Origin: Leptolyngbyaceae cyanobacterium JSC-12
GTDB taxonomy: Bacteria > Cyanobacteriota > Cyanobacteriia > Leptolyngbyales > Leptolyngbyaceae
Reading direction: 5' to 3'
Assembly: GCA_000309945.1 (NCBI GenBank)
Contig: CM001633.1
Coordinates: forward strand, 1,956,292 to 2,020,291
Length of the DNA: 64,000 bases
Both the position numbers and the translations under genes were made by a program. The notes beneath the pieces are model-generated. The model worked only from the letters and a program-made list of their open reading frames with translations. It ran no database searches and was not told the origin of the DNA. Below, one piece after another: positions 4,255 through 34,536 of this stretch (positions are counted from its first letter, which is position 1; every line of letters starts with the position of its first letter).

Positions 4255-4531
4255 AGACTCAAGGGAACAGCCATTCGCCTTTTGTAGTTCACCCTTCATC
4301 ATGCCTACCAAACCCTTACAATCTGCAATTTTTTTAGGATTCCTTTCGAGGTCACTCTTGAAAGCGGCTACTTCCGCTCAGAGCGATCGCGCTTTCCGAT
4401 AATATGAAAAAATGCTCGAAATCGGTATCTCTAAAGTTGAGTACAGGTAAAGTACTCAAGTAAAGTGCTACCGGGGCATTTCGTACACTACCTGGCATGA
4501 GTCTATTGCCGCTGCATCCAACGAGGGAGCT

Positions 4532-4783
4532 ATGAGCGAAAAAGAAATTTTGGATAAAGTTCAGAAAATTGTGGCTGAACAACTAGGAGTCGATGCAAGT
4601 GAGGTGACTCCGCAAGCCAGCTTTGCCAATGATCTGGGAGCAGATTCCCTGGATACGGTTGAACTTGTAATGGCGCTGGAAGAGGAATTTGATATCGAAA
4701 TTCCAGACGAAGCAGCAGAAGAAATTGCCACAGTGCAAGCCGCCGTTGACTACATCAGCAACAAGGTAACTGCCTCTGCTTAG
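4532..4783 (+). CDS. acpP: Acyl carrier protein
   Basis: An 83-residue acidic four-helix carrier of growing acyl chains in type II fatty acid synthesis. The phosphopantetheine attachment site D-S-L lies at residues 38-40 (Ser39) within [17 protein letters not shown] ribosome site sits 5-6 bases before the ATG. fabF follows 110 bases downstream on the same strand, the classic acpP-fabF pair, so co-transcription is likely. Confidence 0.97.
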
Positions 4784-4893
4784 TTGAGAGATCAGTGGGT
4801 TAGAGTTTTGGGTTAGTCTTTCACACTGGCTCAAAACTCCACTGCTACGGCTGATTGTTTTTTATGTTGAGTGATTAACTCTCTGTTGAAATC

Positions 4894-6147
4894 ATGGCAA
4901 ACGTTGAACGTAAGCGGGTCGTTGTCACCGGACTAGGCGCGATCACACCCATTGGAAATACCCCAGTAGACTACTGGGACGGATTAATAAGTGGGCGAAA
5001 TGGGATTGGTCCGATTACCTTGTTTGATGCCTCTCGTCACGACTGCCGCTTTGCTGGTGAAGTCAAGGGGTTTGATCCGTTGCTTTACGTTGATCGCAAA
5101 GAGGCAAAACGCATGGATCGCTTTGCTCAATTTGCAGTTGCAGCCAGTAAGCAAGCCATTGCTGACGCTCAGTTTGTCATCAATGATCTGAATGCAGAAC
5201 AAGTTGGCGTGTTGATCGGTACAGGAATCGGCGGGTTGAAAGTGCTGGAAGACCAGCAGGAAATTTACCTCACTAAAGGGCCTGATCGCTGTAGCCCCTT
5301 TATGATCCCCATGATGATTGCCAACATGGCAGCGGGCTTGACTGCCATCCACCTGGGAGCAAAAGGTCCCAATTCCTGTTCGGTGACTGCCTGTGCGGCT
5401 GGCTCCAATGCGATTGGGGATGCATTTCGTCTGGTTCAGAACGGCTACGCCCAAGCCATGATTTGTGGCGGTACAGAAGCTGCTGTTACACCATTGTCCA
5501 TTGCTGGGTTTGCTGCCTGCAAGGCATTGTCTACCCGCAATGACGACCCAATTCACGCGAGTCGTCCGTTCGATAAGGATCGAGATGGCTTCGTCCTGGG
5601 CGAAGGTTCAGGCATTTTGGTGCTTGAAGAACTAGAACATGCCCTGGCAAGAGGGGCACGGATTTATGCCGAAATTGTTGGCTATGGCATGACCTGCGAT
5701 GCCTATCACATCACAGGGCAAACTCCAGGTGGAGTAGATGCAGCTAGAGCAATGTCTCTGGCTCTCAAGGACGCCGGAATTGCCCCTGAACAGGTGAGCT
5801 ATATCAACGCTCATGGCACCAGTACGCCCATTAATGACCCGACTGAAACGGCTGCGATTAAAAAAGCGTTGGGAGACCATGCCTATAAGGTTGCAGTCAG
5901 TTCTACCAAGTCGATGACAGGTCACTTACTGGGAGGTGCTGGCGGGATTGAAGCGGTTGCGACAGTAATGGCAATTGTAAATAATCGTGTGCCGCCTACT
6001 ATCAATCTGGAAACACCCGATTCAGAATGCGATCTCGACTATGTGCCACATCAAAGTCGCGAGTTGAACGTACAGGTTGCACTTTCCAATTCATTTGGAT
6101 TTGGTGGGCACAACGTTACTTTGGCGTTCAAGAAATTTGTGCAGTAG
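4894..6147 (+). CDS. fabF: 3-oxoacyl-[acyl carrier protein] synthase II
   Basis: A 417-residue condensing enzyme that elongates acyl-ACP with malonyl-ACP in fatty acid synthesis. The Cys-His-His triad is intact: Cys167 in V-T-A-C-A-A-G-S, His307 in N-A-H-G-T-S-T and His344 in K-S-M-T-G-H-L-L-G. The conserved C-terminal N-S-F-G-F-G-G-H-N is present. Length equals the family norm. It lies directly behind acpP, whose product is its substrate carrier. Confidence 0.97.
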
Positions 6148-6157
6148 CTAAGGAGCA

Positions 6158-6186
6158 GTTCAGGGCGGTTCCTAATCTCCCTGAAC
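6158..6186 (+). terminator. Possible fabF terminator hairpin
   Basis: An 8-bp perfect stem (GTTCAGGG at 6158-6165, CCCTGAAC at 6179-6186) starts 11 bases after the fabF stop. No strong T tract follows, so it may be a weak or factor-assisted terminator. Confidence 0.4.
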
Positions 6187-6397
6187 CATATCTATTGACT
6201 CTTTAATCTAAGAATGTATTCAGTTAATTCGCTTTGATTAGTTTTTTCAATAGGGATTATTGCCTATCGTCCCCAGTTGATGGGATGATTACGTCTATCT
6301 AGCTAGATATAGCTGGATGCAGGTGACTTGTCTTACCTAGCTTTTTAATTCGTTTCACGCTAAACCCATCACAGACCCACCACTGAGTAGAGAGATC

Positions 6398-8410
6398 ATG
6401 GCTGTTGCAACTCAAACCCTTCAAGACCTTTGCATTAACTCGATCCGTTTTCTTGCAATTGATGCTGTAGAAAAGGCGAAGTCTGGTCACCCAGGACTCC
6501 CGATGGGTGCTGCTCCAATGGCATTTGTCCTATGGGATCAGTTTATGCGATTTAATCCCAAAAATCCGAAGTGGTACAACCGCGATCGCTTCGTGCTGTC
6601 GGCTGGTCATGGCTGTATGTTGCAATATGCCCTGATGTATCTCACAGGCTATGACAGTGTGACATTGGATGATATCAAACAGTTCCGCCAATGGGGATCG
6701 AAAACCCCTGGACACCCTGAAAACTTTGAGACGGCTGGTGTTGAAGTCACCACAGGACCTCTAGGGCAGGGTATCGCCAATGCCGTAGGGTTAGCAATGG
6801 CCGAGGCACATATGGCAGCTACTTTCAACAAGCCCGATGTTACCCTGGTTGATCACTACACTTACGTCATCCTGGGCGATGGTTGCAATATGGAAGGGGT
6901 TTCCGGTGAAGCCTGTTCGCTGGCAGGGCACTTGGGACTGGGCAAACTGATTGCGCTCTATGACGATAACCACATTTCCATCGATGGTTCTACGGATATT
7001 GCCTTTACAGAAGATGTTGCCAAGCGCTTTGAAGCCTATGGTTGGCACGTTCAGCATGTTCCCGATGGTAATACTGATCTAGAAGCAATTGCGAAAGCGA
7101 TCGCAGAAGCAAAAGCCGTCACCAATAAACCCTCTTTAATTAAGATCACCACCACGATTGGTTATGGTTCTCCTAACAAAGCCAACACTGCAGGGGTGCA
7201 CGGTGCCGCTTTAGGCGAGGATGAAATCAAACTCACCCGTGAAAACTTAGGCTGGCAGTACGCCCCCTTCACAATTCCTGATGATGCACTGAACCATATG
7301 CGCAAAGCCGTAGAGCGAGGTGCCAGCCTGGAAGCAGAGTGGCAAGAAACCTGGGCACAATACAAAACCAAGTACACCAAAGAAGCGGCTGAATTTGAGC
7401 GGTTGATCAATGGCAAGTTGCCGGATGGATGGGATAAGGTTCTCCCTACCTATACCCCCGCAGACAAAGCAGTTGCTAGCCGTAAGCATTCCGAAATTTG
7501 CCTCAATGCGCTAGCACCAGTTCTGCCTGAACTGTTTGGTGGATCCGCTGACCTGACTCACTCTAATCTGACTGAATTGAAAGGCTTCGGTGATTTTCAG
7601 GCTGGACACTATCAAAATCGCAACGTTCGGTTCGGTGTGCGGGAACATGGCATGGGAGCGATTTGTAATGGGATTGCCCTGCATGGCTCCGGGTTAATTC
7701 CCTACGGTGCAACCTTCCTGGTCTTTACCGATTACATGCGCGGTGCAATTCGCCTGTCTGCACTGGCTCAATGTGGTGTCATCTGGGTGATGACTCACGA
7801 CTCGATTGCTCTAGGCGAAGATGGACCCACGCACCAGCCCGTAGAAACCATCGCATCTCTGCGAGCAATCCCCAATTTAACGGTGTTGCGTCCGGCAGAT
7901 GGCACAGAAACCTCCGGTGCTTACAAAGTTGCGATTTTGAATGCAAAGGAAAATCGTCCAACCCTGCTGGCACTCTCGCGCCAAAACTTGCCAAACCTGT
8001 CAGGTAGCTCCATCGATGGCGTGGCAAAAGGTGCTTATGCGGTGATTGACTGCGACGGCACACCTGACCTGATCCTGATTGGCACAGGGTCGGAAGTAGG
8101 GCTGTGCGTCAAAGCTGCTGAACAACTGACTGGCGAAGGCAAGAAAGTCCGCGTGGTTTCCATGCCATCCTGGGAATTGTTTGAAGCTCAGGATACTGCT
8201 TACAAGGAATCTGTTCTGCCTAAAGCTGTGAAGAAGCGGCTGGCAGTAGAGGCTGGTATCAGCATGGGTTGGTGCAAATTTGTTGGCGAGGAAGGAGATG
8301 TTGTCTCCATTGATCGCTTTGGGGCATCGGCTCCGGGTGGCACCTGTCTGGAAAAGTTTGGCTTCACGGTTGATAACGTGGTTACCAAAGCTAAAGCACT
8401 GCTTGGTTAA
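6398..8410 (+). CDS. tktA: Transketolase
   Basis: A 670-residue thiamine-diphosphate enzyme that moves two-carbon units between sugar phosphates in the Calvin-Benson and pentose phosphate cycles. Visible features: S-G-H-P-G-L-P-M-G around residue 30, the ThDP-binding G-D-G-C-N-M-E-G motif at 160-167, the pyrimidine-domain stretch [10 protein letters not shown], and the C-terminal transketolase domain with G-T-G-S-E-V. Full family length, no damage. A 250-base leader separates it from fabF and contains a 14-bp perfect palindrome at 6296-6309. In a cyanobacterium this single enzyme serves both photosynthetic and oxidative carbon metabolism. Confidence 0.97.
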
Positions 8411-28956: not shown

Positions 28957-29300
28957 CTAAGAAGCCGGAATACGGTTGAGGACAATGAATTCACGCTTGA
29001 AGGAGTCATCGAGTTGTCGCTTAGAAGCAATGGCAGGTTGCGCATCAGGAGCACTCGATAGAAACCGAATACACTGAATGTTCGATTGCTGAGTGATAGC
29101 AAAACGAATCCAATTCCAACCCAGTTTGAGATAACTCATACCTCGATTCCAGTGAGGGTCAACCAGACGACGTTTACCTGATGTCACGACTTGCAGTCCT
29201 TGCAGCACCAGAAACAGCATCGTCAAGGCAATGATGCCAATTAACTGAGTTGAGGTGCATGGCTTGGGAAGCCCATCACTGCGATCGCAGCTAGCAGGTT
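28957..29300 (-). pseudogene. IS4-family transposase remnant (C-terminus)
   Basis: A minus-strand frame whose last 110 residues look like the end of cyanobacterial IS4-type transposases: a hydrophobic helix, then L-V-L-Q-G-L-Q-V-V, R-R-L-V-D-P-H-W-N-R-G-M-S-Y-L-K-L-G-W-N-W-I. The catalytic DDE region is missing. Its upstream limit is a breakpoint near 29300 against the ATPase fragment on the other strand. No terminal repeat was found, so it is a dead remnant. Confidence 0.55.
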
Positions 29301-29312
29301 GGAGTAGTGAGG

Positions 29313-29677
29313 GGTTACGCTGCCCCAATGTTGAGATTAAATTAATGACTGACGACAGGATTGCCCCTGTATCACTGATCCAGATGCCCAACGGCATGGG
29401 CAAAACCACAACTCTGACGATGATTCGAGCCGCGATGAGTGGTGAAGCTCAGGGGTGGACTGCTGGGAAAATTAAAAGCTTACGTCGTCCAGGTGAATCA
29501 CGTTCAGAGGGTAGATTTATTCTGAATTTGAGAGTTGATGACCAACCCTTGACAATCCCTTACTTGCTATCTGCTCAATTGTTAGGTAGAGATTTATCAC
29601 GCCTAGCAATCCACACAAAAAATCAGTTCGAGATTTGGAAGCACTCGTCTACTATGCCAGGAAATTTGAGCGGTTAA
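29313..29677 (+). pseudogene. P-loop (SMC/Dnd-like) ATPase fragment, N-terminal
   Basis: About 100 recognisable residues: L-R-C-P-N-V-E-I-K-L, then a Walker A in Q-M-P-N-G-M-G-K-T-T-T-L-T-M-I-R-A, followed by a beta-rich stretch (G-R-F-I-L-N-L-R-V-D-D-Q-P-L-T-I). This is the start of an ABC/SMC-type ATPase. The coiled coil, signature and Walker B are absent, and the 5' end is cut near 29313. It does not read like the usual DndD N-terminus, so I treat it as a separate gene's remnant. It runs into the next pseudogene near 29600-29635. Confidence 0.5.
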
Positions 29678-30221
29678 GGGTCGATCGCGCTCATGGCATT
29701 GCACCTCACAAACCAATATTGCTCCTGTCAGTCATTAAACTCATCCAGCAAGGGGAGATCGCGCAGAATCAAATTTACCTGTCGGACGAACTGATTACTA
29801 CTTTTAAGACGGTTTGGAGTTATCTAGGGTCAGAGAACCATTACCCGGATATTTCCAGACCTTTTTTTGTTTACGTGGCGATAAGTTCTGGCATCTCGTC
29901 CCCAATCGGGGTTATCGAAAAATTATTACTTCTAAAGTTAAGCTAAAAATCTTTACGGAAGTTAAACAAGCTGTTAAATATGCTCATATTGATGATGCTT
30001 TGCTTGAATTGCTTCAAGATCCACTGTCAAGAGCCAGTTTAACGACTATCCTAGTACAGAAATGGTTTAGTTCTAAGCTGGATCAGTACAAACAGTATTT
30101 AGAAACAACTCCACTGAAGGGAACCCAAGATCTTTCTGGTCAGGACACTGAACAGTACAGGTTAAATGAAAAAAGACCTGAACTATTACATCAAACAGTT
30201 TACGCAACTTCGGATCGATAG
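29635..30221 (+). pseudogene. Sulfur-binding-domain protein, frameshifted, no HNH
   Basis: A paralogue of the next gene's N-terminal half. F-E-R-L-R-V-D-R-A-H-G-I-A-P-H-K-P-I-L-L-L is the hallmark of the phosphorothioate (sulfur)-binding domain. The frame breaks in a run of seven T at about 29863-29869: adding one T restores continuity into L-R-G-D-K-F-W-H-L-V-P, which aligns with S-Q-A-F-W-H-L-V-P of the intact copy. The rest continues to 30221, overlapping the next start by 56 bases, without an HNH domain. The start is unclear (TTG 29635), since upstream DNA belongs to another broken gene. Confidence 0.7.
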
Positions 30222-31131
30222 AGCGCATGGACAAGCTCCCTATCAACCGCTTTTGCTGTTGTCCTTGATAGATCTGATTGAACAGGGAACAATCACGGCG
30301 AACAATTTTCCGATTACACCAGAACTCATTTCTACGTTTATCAAATATCGCGATCGCTTGAGTTCTACCTTACATCAGGCGAATCCAGCACAGCCTTTCT
30401 ACCACATGAGCCGACCCAGCCAAGCATTTTGGCACTTAGTTCCAATACCCGGACATGAACAGGTTCTTCTTTCTGGTGGAAAACTGAATACCCTCAAGAA
30501 GCTGAGAGACAATGTTTTGTATGGCTATTTTGATGATGAGTTATTCCAGATTCTTCTAAACCCTCAAGAAAGAAGGAGTCTGATTAATGAACTCATTAAC
30601 AAATGGTTTCCTGATAAATTCGCACAAATACAGCAACTCTTACAGATTAATTCTTTTCAAGAATTTCGTTACTCTTTGCATGAGAAAGGTGGAGCAGTCT
30701 ACACCGTTGAGGAACTGAAAAAAGAAGATGAAGTAGAAACCTTTAGAAGAGATGCGACATTTCGCAAAGAAGTTCTCTCGCTCTATGATCAACGCTGTGC
30801 CTTCTGTCGCTTAAGAGTTATTAGTCAGGATAGTGAGAACATTGTCGATGGAGCGCATATTCTACCATTCTCTACATTTCGTGATGATCGATTTGATAAC
30901 GGTTTATCACTCTGTAAAAATCATCATTGGGCGTTTGATCATGGTTGGTTTGGCATTAGTGATGACTATAAAATTATTCTGCCTGAGAATCGTATCCATG
31001 AAGAGCCACCGATTGATACTAAACCCATGATTGCATTTCATGGAGAAACACTGTTTCTACCAAATCAGCAAGAGTTTCATCCCCGATCTGAAGCAATTCA
31101 ATGGCATCGTGAACGCTGGAACATTGCTTGA
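30166..31131 (+). CDS. Phosphorothioation-dependent HNH restriction endonuclease (SBD-HNH)
   Basis: A 321-residue type IV restriction enzyme. Residues 5-170 form the sulfur-binding domain (Y-I-K-Q-F-T-Q-L-R-I-D-R-A-H-G-Q-A-P-Y-Q-P-L-L-L-L, later F-W-H-L-V-P), as in ScoMcrA/SprMcrA-type enzymes that recognise phosphorothioated DNA. Residues 200-300 hold a zinc-associated HNH nuclease: C-A-F-C-R-L, then V-D-G-A-H-I-L-P-F-S, D-N-G-L-S-L-C-K-N-H-H-W-A-F-D-H-G. All catalytic features look intact. It normally cuts DNA bearing Dnd modification. Here it lies beside broken dnd genes, so it would protect against incoming Dnd-modified DNA without self-damage (inference). Confidence 0.85.
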   Translation: MKKDLNYYIKQFTQLRIDRAHGQAPYQPLLLLSLIDLIEQGTITANNFPITPELISTFIKYRDRLSSTLHQANPAQPFYHMSRPSQAFWHLVPIPGHEQVLLSGGKLNTLKKLRDNVLYGYFDDELFQILLNPQERRSLINELINKWFPDKFAQIQQLLQINSFQEFRYSLHEKGGAVYTVEELKKEDEVETFRRDATFRKEVLSLYDQRCAFCRLRVISQDSENIVDGAHILPFSTFRDDRFDNGLSLCKNHHWAFDHGWFGISDDYKIILPENRIHEEPPIDTKPMIAFHGETLFLPNQQEFHPRSEAIQWHRERWNIA

Positions 31132-31163: not shown

Positions 31164-31358
31164 TTAAACTTGATTGCGACGTTCCTTAATCTGCATTACC
31201 AAGTCTGCTACTGTTAGCTCATCTTGCCATTGGTGTCGCTCTTTTGTGTAGTCACCATTTCCTCCATCAAACTGGTGCAGAAAGCGCACCATGTCAACGT
31301 AGCCCAGTTCCTTACGCAACGCTGCCAAACCTTGTCGTCTAAGCTCCATTGGGGTCAT
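31164..31358 (-). CDS. Small antitoxin-like protein paired with PIN toxin
   Basis: A 64-residue protein (start M-T-P-M-E-L-R-R-Q-G at 31358) whose gene overlaps the end of the PIN-domain gene by 20 bases on the same strand. Acidic/helical composition and pairing suggest an antitoxin or accessory protein in a toxin-first operon. No family motif is certain; the call rests mainly on context. Confidence 0.5.
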   Translation of the reverse strand: MTPMELRRQGLAALRKELGYVDMVRFLHQFDGGNGDYTKERHQWQDELTVADLVMQIKERRNQV

Positions 31359-31818
31359 TATCAAAGTCTCCTGTTTGAAGTATTGCAATCAGCCATACAG
31401 CAGGGTTATCGACAGATACAGTAAGTGAGTTACGGTATCGAGCCGCCCTTCTCAATAATCGATCATCTGTTGATAAAAAAACATCTACTTGACCAATTTC
31501 AACACAGGCGAGATGGAGTGCATCAAATCCTTGAAACCCCAAATTCTGTAGCTCCTCACCGCGCTGTGCTGCCATGTCATCGACTATTAAACGCGATCGT
31601 GCCATTAGCATCGCCTCCTCAATTCTTTGCCGCCGATCCGGATCTGCAATTTGAGCGACTTCGATTTCAACCACCTCGCTAATAGTCAGTTCCCATTCAC
31701 CCGTCTCGCACCGCTCCAAAATAGCTAAAACAGCCTCAGTTTCTACCCGAATACGAGCTTGGCTCTGGTCATCAAAGGGACGATTCAAACAACAAACATC
31801 GAGATAGATACGCAGCAT
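31339..31818 (-). CDS. PIN-domain (VapC-like) ribonuclease
   Basis: A 159-residue PIN-domain protein. The acidic active site is visible: I-Y-L-D-V-C-C-L-N-R-P-F-D-D at the N-terminus, conserved Glu in the middle, F-D-A-L-H-L-A-C-V-E and F-L-S-T-D-D-R-L-L at the C-terminus. ATG 31818 follows a GTG one codon earlier. VapC toxins cleave tRNA or rRNA when freed from their antitoxin. Its stop overlaps the small downstream gene, giving a compact toxin-antitoxin-like unit on the minus strand inside the element. Confidence 0.75.
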   Translation of the reverse strand: MLRIYLDVCCLNRPFDDQSQARIRVETEAVLAILERCETGEWELTISEVVEIEVAQIADPDRRQRIEEAMLMARSRLIVDDMAAQRGEELQNLGFQGFDALHLACVEIGQVDVFLSTDDRLLRRAARYRNSLTVSVDNPAVWLIAILQTGDFDNDPNGA

Positions 31819-31824
31819 CACTGG

Positions 31825-32165
31825 TTAGAAGTTATCGAATAGTAATGGTTGAATACTGCCATCGGGAAGGATCTCAGGAAGCCACTCATCCCCTCGATGT
31901 TCCGTCCCATCCCATTTTTCTGGATAGGTGTTTGCAGCAATCAGTTCCTTAATTCGCGCCAGTTCTTCATCATTGATCAGGCTAATTTCTGGTTTGCCAA
32001 GTCGTTGCGCTGCTGTATTCACCTCTGATTGAATGGCTAAAACTTGCTCTAGCATCCAACGTCGAGCATCTAGAGTCAATGGTCCCAAACGATTCTGTTT
32101 GGCTGAGAGAGAGCCATCCTTGTTGACCTCTCCATGCTTACGATGGCGATATTGCGGCTTTTTAA
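31825..32165 (-). pseudogene. dndC: DndC-like sulfurtransferase, C-terminal fragment
   Basis: About 110 C-terminal residues of a PAPS-reductase-like protein resembling DndC: K-P-Q-Y-R-H-R-K-H-G-E, then Q-N-R-L-G-P-L-T-L-D-A-R-R-W-M-L-E-Q-V-L-A-I-Q and N-D-E-E-L-A-R-I-K-E-L-I. The ATP-pyrophosphatase core is missing. The gene faces away from dndD, whereas dndC and dndD normally run in tandem, and the breakpoint against dndD lies near 32165-32190. The frame stays open to 32349 only as an antisense shadow of dndD. Its DndC identity rests on motif memory and context. Confidence 0.55.
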
Positions 32166-33363
32166 TTTCCCAATACAAAGGTCTGAGCTTTTGCAGCGGT
32201 CGCAGCAACACCAACAGGCAAGGAACAAAGCCGACGACCATCGCGCTGCCTTGCGAGAGGTTGCAGCGGGGGTCTTGCCTCTGGCATTGATTCAGCCTTT
32301 GCTTGAAGAGGCTCAAGTTCAAGCCCAGCAGGAGATCCGGCAACAACAATTAGAGTCCGCTGGTGAGTTGTTAAAGGAACGGAACCAGGACTTGCTTCAG
32401 TTTGTTAAATCACTAGACTTAGAAACGCAACAACTTGAGCAAATTCGTTCGTTTCTTGCAAAACAAGAAAAGGAAGTCTCAAAGGATATAGGGGAGACTT
32501 GGTTAGGTGCGGACGTAGACACCCTTCATCAACTAACGAACATATTGCAATATTCTCTGCCTCATCAGCGCCAGGTAGCAGCAGACCACTTAAAGCAGCT
32601 TCAAACTTATCAGGAGGAGATCGAAACCATTGAACGCTACCTTGCAACGGCTGCTTCCCCGGAGATGTATGACAAGTTAGTGCAGCATGTGCGTCAGGCA
32701 CAGGCAGAAGTCGTGAGCCTCAAAGCCGATCGCGAACACAGTCAACGGCTGCTTGAGCAAGCAGAACAAACCCTTGCCCGCACCAGGCAAGAACTAATGG
32801 ACTATGGCAAGCGGGTGATCGACCGCAAAAATGATGAGCATACACTAGCAGCGATCGCTAAAGTCCAAGACACCCTCAAAGTGTTCAAGCAAAAGCTGAA
32901 ACTCCGTAAGCTCAATCAGCTTGAAACCCTGGTGACCGAGTGCTTCCTCTACTTGCTGCACAAGTCGAACCTGGTGCATCGGGTTCAAATTGACACCGAA
33001 ACCTTCAGCCTCTCTCTGTTTGACTACGAAGGACAGCCTGTCCCCAAACATCGGCTGTCTGCGGGTGAGAAGCAGCTACTAGCGATTTCCCTGTTGTGGG
33101 GATTAGCCCGTGCCTCTGGGCGGCAACTCCCCGTGGCGATCGACACCCCCTTGGGTCGGCTGGATTCCTCCCATCGTGCCAACCTGGTTGATCGCTACTT
33201 CCCGCAAGCCAGCCACCAGGTGCTGCTGCTCTCGACGGACACCGAGATTGGCAAGACAGAGGTGAAACGGTTGCGGGAGAATGGGGCGATCGCCCGTGAG
33301 TATCTGCTGCGGTATGACTCAGCCCTCCAGCAAACTAAAGTAAAATCGGGATACTTCTGCTGA
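32134..33363 (+). pseudogene. dndD: DndD ATPase, 5'-truncated
   Basis: A 409-codon open frame holding the C-terminal part of DndD, the SMC-like ATPase of DNA phosphorothioation. A long coiled coil (about 20-270) leads to the head: H-R-L-S-A-G-E-K-Q-L-L-A-I-S-L-L-W-G (signature) and P-V-A-I-D-T-P-L-G-R-L-D (Walker B), then L-V-D-R-Y-F-P-Q-A-S-H-Q-V-L-L-L-S-T-D. The N-terminal Walker A is absent; normal DndD is about 650-700 residues. The first 15-20 codons are antisense to the dndC fragment. An ATG at 32134 could still express the stump, but it should not hydrolyse ATP alone. Confidence 0.75.
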
Positions 33364-33395
33364 TCGAGTTGACTTACAGAAGTAAGGGGAAAGCG

Positions 33396-34016
33396 ATGTC
33401 TTATAAAGATTTCACTCTAGAGCAAATCAATCAAAAGTTTGCGGTTGCAATTCAAAGCAATCTAGATGTTTTCTCAACTTACAAACAGCCCGTTCAAATC
33501 AATCCAGCCTTTGCTAGCCAACTGGAATATAGCACAACCTTAGCCCTTGCCATTAATACCGAAAAAGCCCGTTCGGAAATGATCATTGCCCCTATTTTAA
33601 TTGAGCTAAAACGGCTAACAGGCGATCGCATCAGCCTGTTTTCTGGGAGCGAATTTAATGTTGACGTGGCGCAAGGGCTGAATGGATTTTGTGACTTTAT
33701 CATTAGCCTTTCCAACCAGCAGCTTTACATTGAAGCCCCCGTTGCTATTATCGTTGAAGCCAAAAACGAAAACATTAAAGGTGGGTTAGCCCAATGTTTG
33801 GCAACCATGATTGCAGCACAACTGTTTAATCAACAAAAAGGGAATGGGCTTGATACGCTCTATGGTGCAGTGACCACAGGCAATCAATGGAAGTTTCTCA
33901 AACTCCATAGAGATACGGCAGCGATCGACAGCAAAGATTACTACATCGATCAGCTCTCCGACATCATGGGCATCTTGCTGACCATGGTAGAAAGCCATGC
34001 TTCGCTAGTAGCTTAG
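33396..34016 (+). CDS. Hypothetical protein, possible PD-(D/E)XK nuclease-like fold
   Basis: A 206-residue protein with ATG 33396 behind an AAGGGG site. The sequence contains I-A-P-I-L-I-E-L-K-R-L-T, C-D-F-I-I-S, then A-I-I-V-E-A-K-N-E-N-I-K-G-G-L-A-Q-C-L-A-T-M-I-A-A. This D...E-x-K plus Q pattern fits the restriction-endonuclease-like (PD-(D/E)XK) fold also used in type I restriction subunits. It lies between dndD and dndE and may be a cargo nuclease or accessory protein. The family name is not known to me. Confidence 0.55.
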   Translation: MSYKDFTLEQINQKFAVAIQSNLDVFSTYKQPVQINPAFASQLEYSTTLALAINTEKARSEMIIAPILIELKRLTGDRISLFSGSEFNVDVAQGLNGFCDFIISLSNQQLYIEAPVAIIVEAKNENIKGGLAQCLATMIAAQLFNQQKGNGLDTLYGAVTTGNQWKFLKLHRDTAAIDSKDYYIDQLSDIMGILLTMVESHASLVA

Positions 34017-34134: not shown

Positions 34135-34536
34135 ATGCTAGAGCCTCCCCTCGATCGCGTCCGCATTTCCCAAGCCGCTAAGGATCAATTGATCAAACTC
34201 AAGCGCGTTACTAAGATTGACCAGTGGAACATTCTCTGTCGCTGGGCTTTGTGCCGCTCCTTAGCAGAACCCACGCCCCCTTCGCCTGTCGCAATTCCAG
34301 CCGATAGCAATGTGGAGATGACCTGGCAGGTGTTTGGAGGGGCGATCGCAGATTTACTCACTATTGCACTCAAACAACGCTGTTGCAACGATGGCTTACC
34401 AACAGATAGAGAAACCCTCGCGATCCAGTTTCGGTTACACCTGCATCGAGGCATTGGTTATTTAGCAGGCGATTCAACCATTAAGACGATTGATCATCTG
34501 ATTGAGAAAGCTGTTGAATTAACCCCTCAGGTGTGA
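34135..34536 (+). CDS. dndE: DNA sulfur modification protein DndE
   Basis: A 133-residue protein with the DndE pattern: R-I-S-Q-A-A-K-D-Q-L-I-K-L-K-R-V-T-K-I, W-N-I-L-C-R-W-A-L-C-R-S-L-A-E-P, D-S-N-V-E-M-T-W-x-V-F-G-G and F-R-L-H-L-H-R-G-I-G-Y-L-A. DndE is a small helical protein that binds nicked DNA and assists the DndCD complex in exchanging a backbone oxygen for sulfur. It looks intact, but its partners here are truncated (dndD), fragmentary (dndC-like) or absent (dndA, dndB), so modification is not expected from this locus. The 3' end overlaps a PIN fragment on the other strand. Confidence 0.88.
   Translation: MLEPPLDRVRISQAAKDQLIKLKRVTKIDQWNILCRWALCRSLAEPTPPSPVAIPADSNVEMTWQVFGGAIADLLTIALKQRCCNDGLPTDRETLAIQFRLHLHRGIGYLAGDSTIKTIDHLIEKAVELTPQV

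Follow-up and report, generated by a model that had tools for sequence, protein, structure and literature searches.

The stretch under study is almost certainly a pseudogene, and belongs to a real family of genes, here called SBD-only, that encode a sulfur-binding domain (SBD) without the HNH nuclease domain carried by the neighboring SBD-HNH gene. It lies in the 64,000-nucleotide region of Leptolyngbyaceae cyanobacterium JSC-12 that we analyzed as a whole and refer to as the window, and it is recently inactivated, in a dead phosphorothioation (PT) island, beside an intact and strongly conserved SBD-HNH. The SBD-only family has a single origin and has kept the canonical sulfur pocket. Judged by sequence, the family probably acts as a reader of PT-DNA without a nuclease, and the “reader, decoy or antagonist” proposed for it in the first-pass annotation remains the right class of idea.

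Nucleases that depend on PT are generally seen as hostile to PT modification. In the cyanobacteria searched, 33 loci have SBD-HNH next to a long-type dndC, and a second island type has SBD-only before SBD-HNH; if SBD-only restrains or aims the nuclease, it would give a direct answer to how a cell writes a mark while carrying a nuclease that reads it. A survey found less than 3.6% of PT-dependent nucleases near a dnd cluster, and in the part of that paper used here their coexistence is only guessed at (PMC7461809). PT restriction systems are stated to be absent from Cyanobacteria in the part of PMC8569181 used here, contrary to the 33 loci.

A broken gene in a degraded PT island

Table 1. Features of the island, with positions in the window (G and L numbers refer to other genomes and loci).
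Feature	Position	Strand	Evidence
49-bp scrap of pbeA-like (HKD/SF2 helicase) gene	29251..29299	+	96% identical to L163:5672-5720, within G530 helicase ORF 4455-6488
CxC-type (pbeC-like) ABC ATPase, truncated N-terminal fragment	29289..29640	+	87% aa identity to G530; PADLOC DndD E 0.0019
ACG at the position of the SBD-only ATG start in relatives	29599..29601	+	aligned start regions of G530 and G466
SBD-only 5′ part (frame 1)	29635..29868	+	TTG 29635; frame-1 ORF continues out of frame to stop 29946; 73% identity to G011 residues 3-80 (tblastn)
T7 run; frame lost immediately 3′	29862..29868	+	sequence; FACHB-321 alignment
SBD-only 3′ part (frame 2)	29868..30221	+	ORF 29814-30221; 66% identity to FACHB-321; in register with intact homologues
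SBD-HNH endonuclease, intact, 321 aa, pocket Y/Q/P	30166..31131	+	HNH_2 42.5 bits; SBDHga1 8h0l E 2e-15; dN/dS 0.066 vs G401
Short-type DndC, C-terminal 127 residues	31831..32211	-	genome's only DndC match
DndD C-terminal part, from profile position 268	32134..33363	+	TIGR03185 355 bits; genome's only match to G170 DndD
PD-(D/E)XK-like protein	33369..34016	+	69% homologue between dndE and dndD in G426
dndE, intact	34135..34536	+	PF08870 148.6 bits

Our analysis bears out the first-pass description of a single SBD gene lying in two frames, a paralogue of the N-terminus of SBD-HNH that lacks HNH and overlaps the next start. One SBD protein is matched by both frames (Table 1): the intact SBD-only protein of G011 continues from its 5′ match with residues 73-160, which align to window positions 29844-30107 at 40% identity (tblastn), and with both halves linked the match has an E value of 1.6e-45, far beyond chance. 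Each half aligns over its full length with intact homologues, with register kept across a break that falls exactly between “...SRPFF” and “(H)MR.GKFWH”; in the intact homologue alignment the 5′ half ends “..DISRPFF” and the 3′ half resumes before “..GDKFWH”. Compared with residues 5-113 of the adjoining SBD-HNH, the gene shows 41% identity (E 7e-16), and the SBD-HNH ATG at 30166 precedes the frame-2 stop at 30221. HNH_2 is present in the neighboring SBD-HNH, and three intact SBD-only proteins gave no Pfam match. We rejected a chance ORF or a recent truncated duplicate of the neighbor, since SBD-only forms one old clade that is nearer to other SBD-HNH than to this YQ-type neighbor.

Examination of the lesion demonstrated that one base is indeed missing, as first annotated, but that the T7 run itself is not shortened, because the nearest relative, Leptolyngbya sp. 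FACHB-321 (L032; 80% DNA identity), has the identical T7 with the frame open; the alignment gap between the two is one base, just 3′ of the run. The FACHB-321 gene is broken elsewhere, by a stop, and its locus carries transposase-like sequence after the first SBD-HNH codons. The window gene also has a second lesion that the first-pass annotation missed, i.e., ACG in place of the ATG start found in G530 and G466 (Table 1), leaving a TTG as a possible weak start.

A sequencing or assembly error at the run, a functional phase switch and programmed frameshifting are each less likely than a pseudogene. That the gene is intact in the cell and merely misread is quite improbable: a one-base loss beside a homopolymer is a typical error, and the gene is otherwise open over about 195 codons, but the genome (G000) is a single 5.53-Mb contig rated 100% complete, and the island also has an independent start-codon change and truncated dndC and dndD. 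Slippage in the T run, which the first-pass annotation had raised as a phase switch, or programmed frameshifting, either of which would take the sequence as correct and the gene as expressed part of the time, is more improbable still, given an open T7 in FACHB-321 rather than run lengths that differ between close relatives and switch the frame, 22 homologues in a single frame open through the site, a longest T run there of 2-6 in 100 of 110 copies read, no RNA structure after the run (z 0.47), and the loss of the window start codon and damage to both modification genes.

The run does form T TTT TTT, which in the window is a correctly framed (zero-frame) -1 slippery heptamer, but with no structure following, this heptamer is all that speaks for programmed frameshifting as such. 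Three copies from different lineages (the window, the SBD-only of G445 and the SBD-HNH of G080) lack one base at the same codon pair, where three of the five in-domain frameshift candidates found fall. This shared position can be counted in favor of a switch; it is also what a mutational hot spot would give, and the G445 SBD-HNH carries a stop too, so that the G445 locus is simply decaying. The G080 copy (L043:9451-10625) is an SBD-HNH inside a dnd island.

The rest of the island is degraded as well. DndC and DndD are represented only by C-terminal fragments (the latter corresponding to residues 282-655 in the match to G170 DndD), the pbeA-like gene by a scrap and the CxC ATPase by a truncated N-terminus, with dndE intact, and PT modification in this strain is thus very unlikely. 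The dndC stump, here traced over 31831-32349 (-), and the dndD stump (+) lie head to head and overlap, with both N-terminal halves gone, as if one deletion took the divergent promoter region. The ATPase fragment is 45% identical to a Rhizobium protein located beside a “CxC ATPase DNA modification system associated small protein”. The same truncated fragment precedes SBD-only in G530, and window and G530 DNA are 80% identical over 763 aligned columns that begin in the ATPase fragment and extend into the SBD gene. This truncated N-terminus before SBD-only (L163:6682-7107; window 29255-29677) thus occurs in two cyanobacterial families. DNA identity between the two is high over the ATPase fragment and falls inside the SBD gene, which suggests that recombination may have occurred within the latter.

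Between SBD-HNH and what is left of dndC, the minus strand has two short ORFs that overlap (74 and 160 aa; 31164-31821) and that on visual inspection resemble a PIN-type toxin-antitoxin pair; the 160-aa ORF matched no Pfam or NCBIfam family. Elsewhere in the genome (G000:C1:4400033-4400284), a second HNH protein with a 350-aa open frame matches SBD-HNH at 40%, in its HNH half only.

The SBD-only family and its sulfur pocket

We searched overlapping sets of 386, 97, 42 and 388 genomes and retrieved the matching loci, counting G411 and FACHB-321, which share sequence, once. An intact SBD-only ORF, 167-213 codons long from stop to stop, is present in 22 other cyanobacterial genomes, and a damaged one in nine, i.e., the window and eight others. 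In 20 of the 22, the intact gene is directly upstream of a same-strand SBD ORF (an SBD-HNH where complete), whose start usually lies within a span from 25 bases before the SBD-only stop to 31 bases after it; the two exceptions are G396, which ends at a contig end, and G524, which has a different, convergent SBD-HNH. The first-pass annotation had proposed looking for just this arrangement in related islands, and the intact homologues found remove the objection that none might exist. The adjoining SBD-HNH reaches full length (at least 319 aa) in 15 of 22 genomes, interrupted by transposase-like sequence in G011 and G392, and short or deleted in G500, G503 and G611. SBD-only follows a pbeD-like gene (dnd_assoc_4) in eight genomes (G170, G011, G392, G481, G568, G573, G596 and G609).

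Short stretches that match a pbeA-like helicase only in its first 70-82 residues lie just upstream of SBD-only at L171:3839-4111, L175:8397-8642, L176:10277-10510 and L177:584-796 (G524, G611, G520 and G491, respectively). The SBD-only copy of G491 runs up to contig ends, and either an insertion or the assembly may have split it.

SBD-only matched no Pfam or PADLOC family. We rejected a phage origin, or a phage-borne antagonist, since 50,697 phage records contained no match and a short-peptide scan of IMG/VR, which covers close relatives only, confirmed no relative. Among plasmids, 14 records matched, with features there named HNH endonuclease or hypothetical protein, and all six of these that we inspected around the SBD matches have a long gene of SBD-HNH length.

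A tree of 104 SBD domains over 145 columns placed the 26 SBD-only rows in one clade against 78 SBD-HNH rows, with support of 100/98 and in 100% of 200 bootstrap trees, although with so few columns many other forks are unresolved. The tree omits G080, the C-terminal piece of G392 and the G611 SBD-HNH (short), G111 (cut by a contig end), and the SBD-only remnants of G401, G612, G607, G570 and G491 (too short or decayed). An earlier tree of 59 rows, with three outgroups from outside the cyanobacteria, gave the same result (nine SBD-only rows, 100/98). The SBD-only clade partners two deeply separate SBD-HNH types, with YQ and HK pockets, and four changes of partner are needed on the SBD-only tree, three of them forced by starred branches.

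We mapped the pocket through shared motifs from that published for the ScoMcrA SBD (PDB 5ZMO), which consists of H116, R117 (K in most homologues) and P165 with Y164 as the lid (the part of PMC6224610 used here); positions were transferred by motif and the 8h0l alignment, the SBD-only profile having no direct ScoMcrA match. Equivalents of H116, K117 and P165 are present in 26 of 26 SBD-only rows, including the window. The lid position 164 is basic in 24 of 26 SBD-only rows (R in 20, K in 4, L and S in one each), and is L, Y or Q in all 79 readable SBD-HNH rows, with R or K in 0 of 79. Positions 116/117 vary in SBD-HNH, being HK in 39, YK in 17, YQ in 7, NK in 6, NQ in 4, HQ in 3 and HE in 1 of 77 readable rows. 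All seven YQ-type SBD-HNH are in loci with SBD-only (7 of 23 versus 0 of 54). We considered whether the YQ pocket of the window SBD-HNH is dead and replaced by SBD-only, and dropped this idea because SprMcrA binds PT-DNA via Y31/Q32, a working pocket in its structure as described in the part of PMC7470945 used here. The statistical link between the YQ type and SBD-only stands, without meaning a loss of sulfur binding.

Selection and the link to short-type dndC

Comparison of the window with G401 shows a strongly constrained nuclease gene beside a decaying partner. The two SBD-HNH proteins are 91% identical, with 27, 14 and 98 changes of 322 at each codon position in turn, and the overall dN/dS (Table 1) divides into 0.070 for the SBD part and 0.063 for the HNH part. 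Between the window gene and the SBD-only remnant of G401, which carries indels and stops, changes are even (26, 17 and 24 of about 90 per codon position). Against FACHB-321, dN/dS of SBD-only is 0.23 and 0.41 in its two parts, both copies now being broken. Synonymous sites are mostly saturated between intact SBD-only genes, and dN/dS is 0.09-0.17 in the 3 of 15 pairs where dS could be computed. These figures indicate that SBD-only was once constrained and is now decaying in the window, with the nuclease kept. SBD-HNH is full length in six of the nine loci with a broken SBD-only (the window, G401, G612, G607, G570 and G491).

Two types of DndC occur in these islands. The long type has open frames of about 515-585 aa (TIGR03183 685 bits in G193); the short type has about 400 aa and scores 137 bits against a TIGR03183 cut-off of 290, so that its PT-writing role is putative. 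None of the 33 loci with long-type dndC close to SBD-HNH contains SBD-only. We tested 94 SBD-positive genomes (51 + 43), in some of which SBD-only absence is read from the search listing alone: SBD-only or a remnant is present in 18 of 23 with short-type DndC of any length versus 13 of 71 without (p 3e-7, with no correction for phylogeny). Intactness follows the same direction: 12 of the 22 genomes whose SBD-only is intact have an intact short-type dndC, versus 0 of the 9 in which SBD-only is damaged (p 0.005, uncorrected; p 0.17 in an earlier 10-genome version); corrected on the tree, there are six independent pairs, one or two concordant and none discordant, and the sign test is not significant. 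In nine of these 12 genomes the adjacent SBD-HNH is full length as well, so that writer, cutter and SBD-only occur together.

Among genomes with damaged SBD-only, the short dndC has an internal stop in G607, which also has the long type, and lies in two frames in G491. The dndC types are not exclusive: the SBD-only genomes G474 and G481 also have the long type, and G596 a fragment of it. Ten of the 22 genomes with intact SBD-only, some of them incomplete drafts, have no detected intact short-type dndC, and four genomes (G562, G496, G606 and G580) have SBD-HNH, an intact short dndC and also a long dndC, and lack SBD-only.

Candidate roles and known systems

We propose that an intact SBD-only protein would bind PT-DNA without being able to cut it, and would be made together with SBD-HNH, presumably by co-translation. 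By occupying the cell's own PT sites, or by pairing with the nuclease, it would lessen self-cleavage in hosts that make PT with short-type DndC. In the window, deletion of the PT writer would have made the reader dispensable and allowed SBD-only to decay, and SBD-HNH may survive as a solitary PT-dependent (type IV) nuclease.

That SBD-only is a restraint on, or shield against, SBD-HNH rather than a targeting subunit falls slightly short of an even chance, because in ten genomes SBD-only is intact yet an intact short dndC was not detected, and because long-type islands do without SBD-only. We favor it over an obligate targeting subunit since SBD-HNH is kept at full length in most loci without a working SBD-only, since intact short-type dndC was never seen with damaged SBD-only, and since SBD-only comes first in order and often overlaps SBD-HNH. 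The antidote gene also comes first in antidote-nuclease pairs. Gene order and spacing fit such a pair; the loss pattern fits as well, though it is non-significant after tree correction. The narrower proposal that SBD-only is the dedicated antidote of a PT-dependent HNH nuclease, sitting on the cell's own PT sites, is tentative, and we consider it rather unlikely. If true, one island could hold both a PT writer and a PT-DNA cutter in an antidote-nuclease arrangement based on sulfur in the DNA backbone, and loss of the writer would make the antidote dispensable, as in the window.

It is likewise doubtful, though credible, that SBD-only is a targeting subunit, i.e., that it forms a heteromer with SBD-HNH and either provides PT recognition or broadens it, leading the nuclease to cut DNA that is PT-marked or hemimodified, with its basic lid perhaps reading another PT motif. 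The tight spacing suggests co-translation; the pocket is strict in SBD-only and HK in just about half of the readable SBD-HNH; linkage was kept through at least three forced changes of partner between the YQ and HK types; and the YQ type is confined to SBD-only loci. Against this, the YQ pocket is not lost, to judge from SprMcrA, the nuclease gene stays full length beside broken SBD-only genes and strongly constrained between the window and G401, and the 33 SBD-HNH beside long-type dndC have no SBD-only.

A PT-responsive regulator, by which SBD-only would sense PT sites and regulate the island in the manner of other small control proteins found upstream in R-M systems, is improbable: SBD-only is a DNA-reader domain alone, is the first gene of the SBD pair and lies after the pbeD-like gene in the eight genomes named above, but its position is inside the operon and not before it.

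The closest known systems differ from SBD-only in composition. SprMcrA and EcoWI, which are PT-dependent SBD-HNH enzymes (NF045808, PT-DNA_restrict), have a homologous SBD with the same pocket residues, whereas SBD-only has no HNH, has a basic lid residue, forms a separate clade and is a partner gene placed before SBD-HNH. An intact SBD-only protein matches NF045808 at 5.7e-7 over the SBD positions only, with 28.9 bits against a curated cut-off of 180, and the window SBD-HNH, at 114.3 bits, is also under that cut-off. The best structural relative by sequence is the solved SBD of SBDHga1 (PDB 8h0l), which the SBD-only profile matches over the whole domain (E 2.7e-26) with PHK...P shared, but L occupies the lid position in the solved chain. 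ScoMcrA, an SBD-SRA-HNH protein, has Y at 164 where SBD-only has R or K (PMC6224610, as above).

The SBD pair sits in islands of the DndCDEA-PbeABCD or CxC-ATPase Dnd kind, with a pbeA-like helicase, pbeC-like ATPase, dnd_assoc_4 and dndC/D/E; the parts of PMC6459918 and PMC10853773 used here describe such islands and mention no SBD-only gene. We equate dnd_assoc_4 (153 aa in G170) with pbeD (152 aa) by size and position. SBD-HNH enzymes and SBD-bearing HNH proteins in Dnd loci are already known, with wHTH(SBD)+SAD+HNH proteins reported in the part of PMC10853773 used here, where “standalone” is used of other proteins. SspE and DndI are also PT-sensing restriction factors beside PT writers, but these DUF262-HNH nucleases have an unrelated reader domain (DUF262) and combine reader and nuclease in a single chain (the part of PMC11662687 used here). 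In the open-access literature, with subscription papers and supplementary files outside our scope, we found no paper on a nuclease-free SBD partner gene, and the main text of PMC7461809 does not contain “SBD only”, “standalone” or “stand-alone”.

Our survey also showed that in many cyanobacteria SBD-HNH has a fixed place between the pbeD-like gene and dndC, as seen in the 33 loci. In G548 and G532, two or three tandem copies of a 515-aa protein without an assigned function lie between SBD-HNH and dndC (L195:6830-9960 and L194:11343-16065, respectively).
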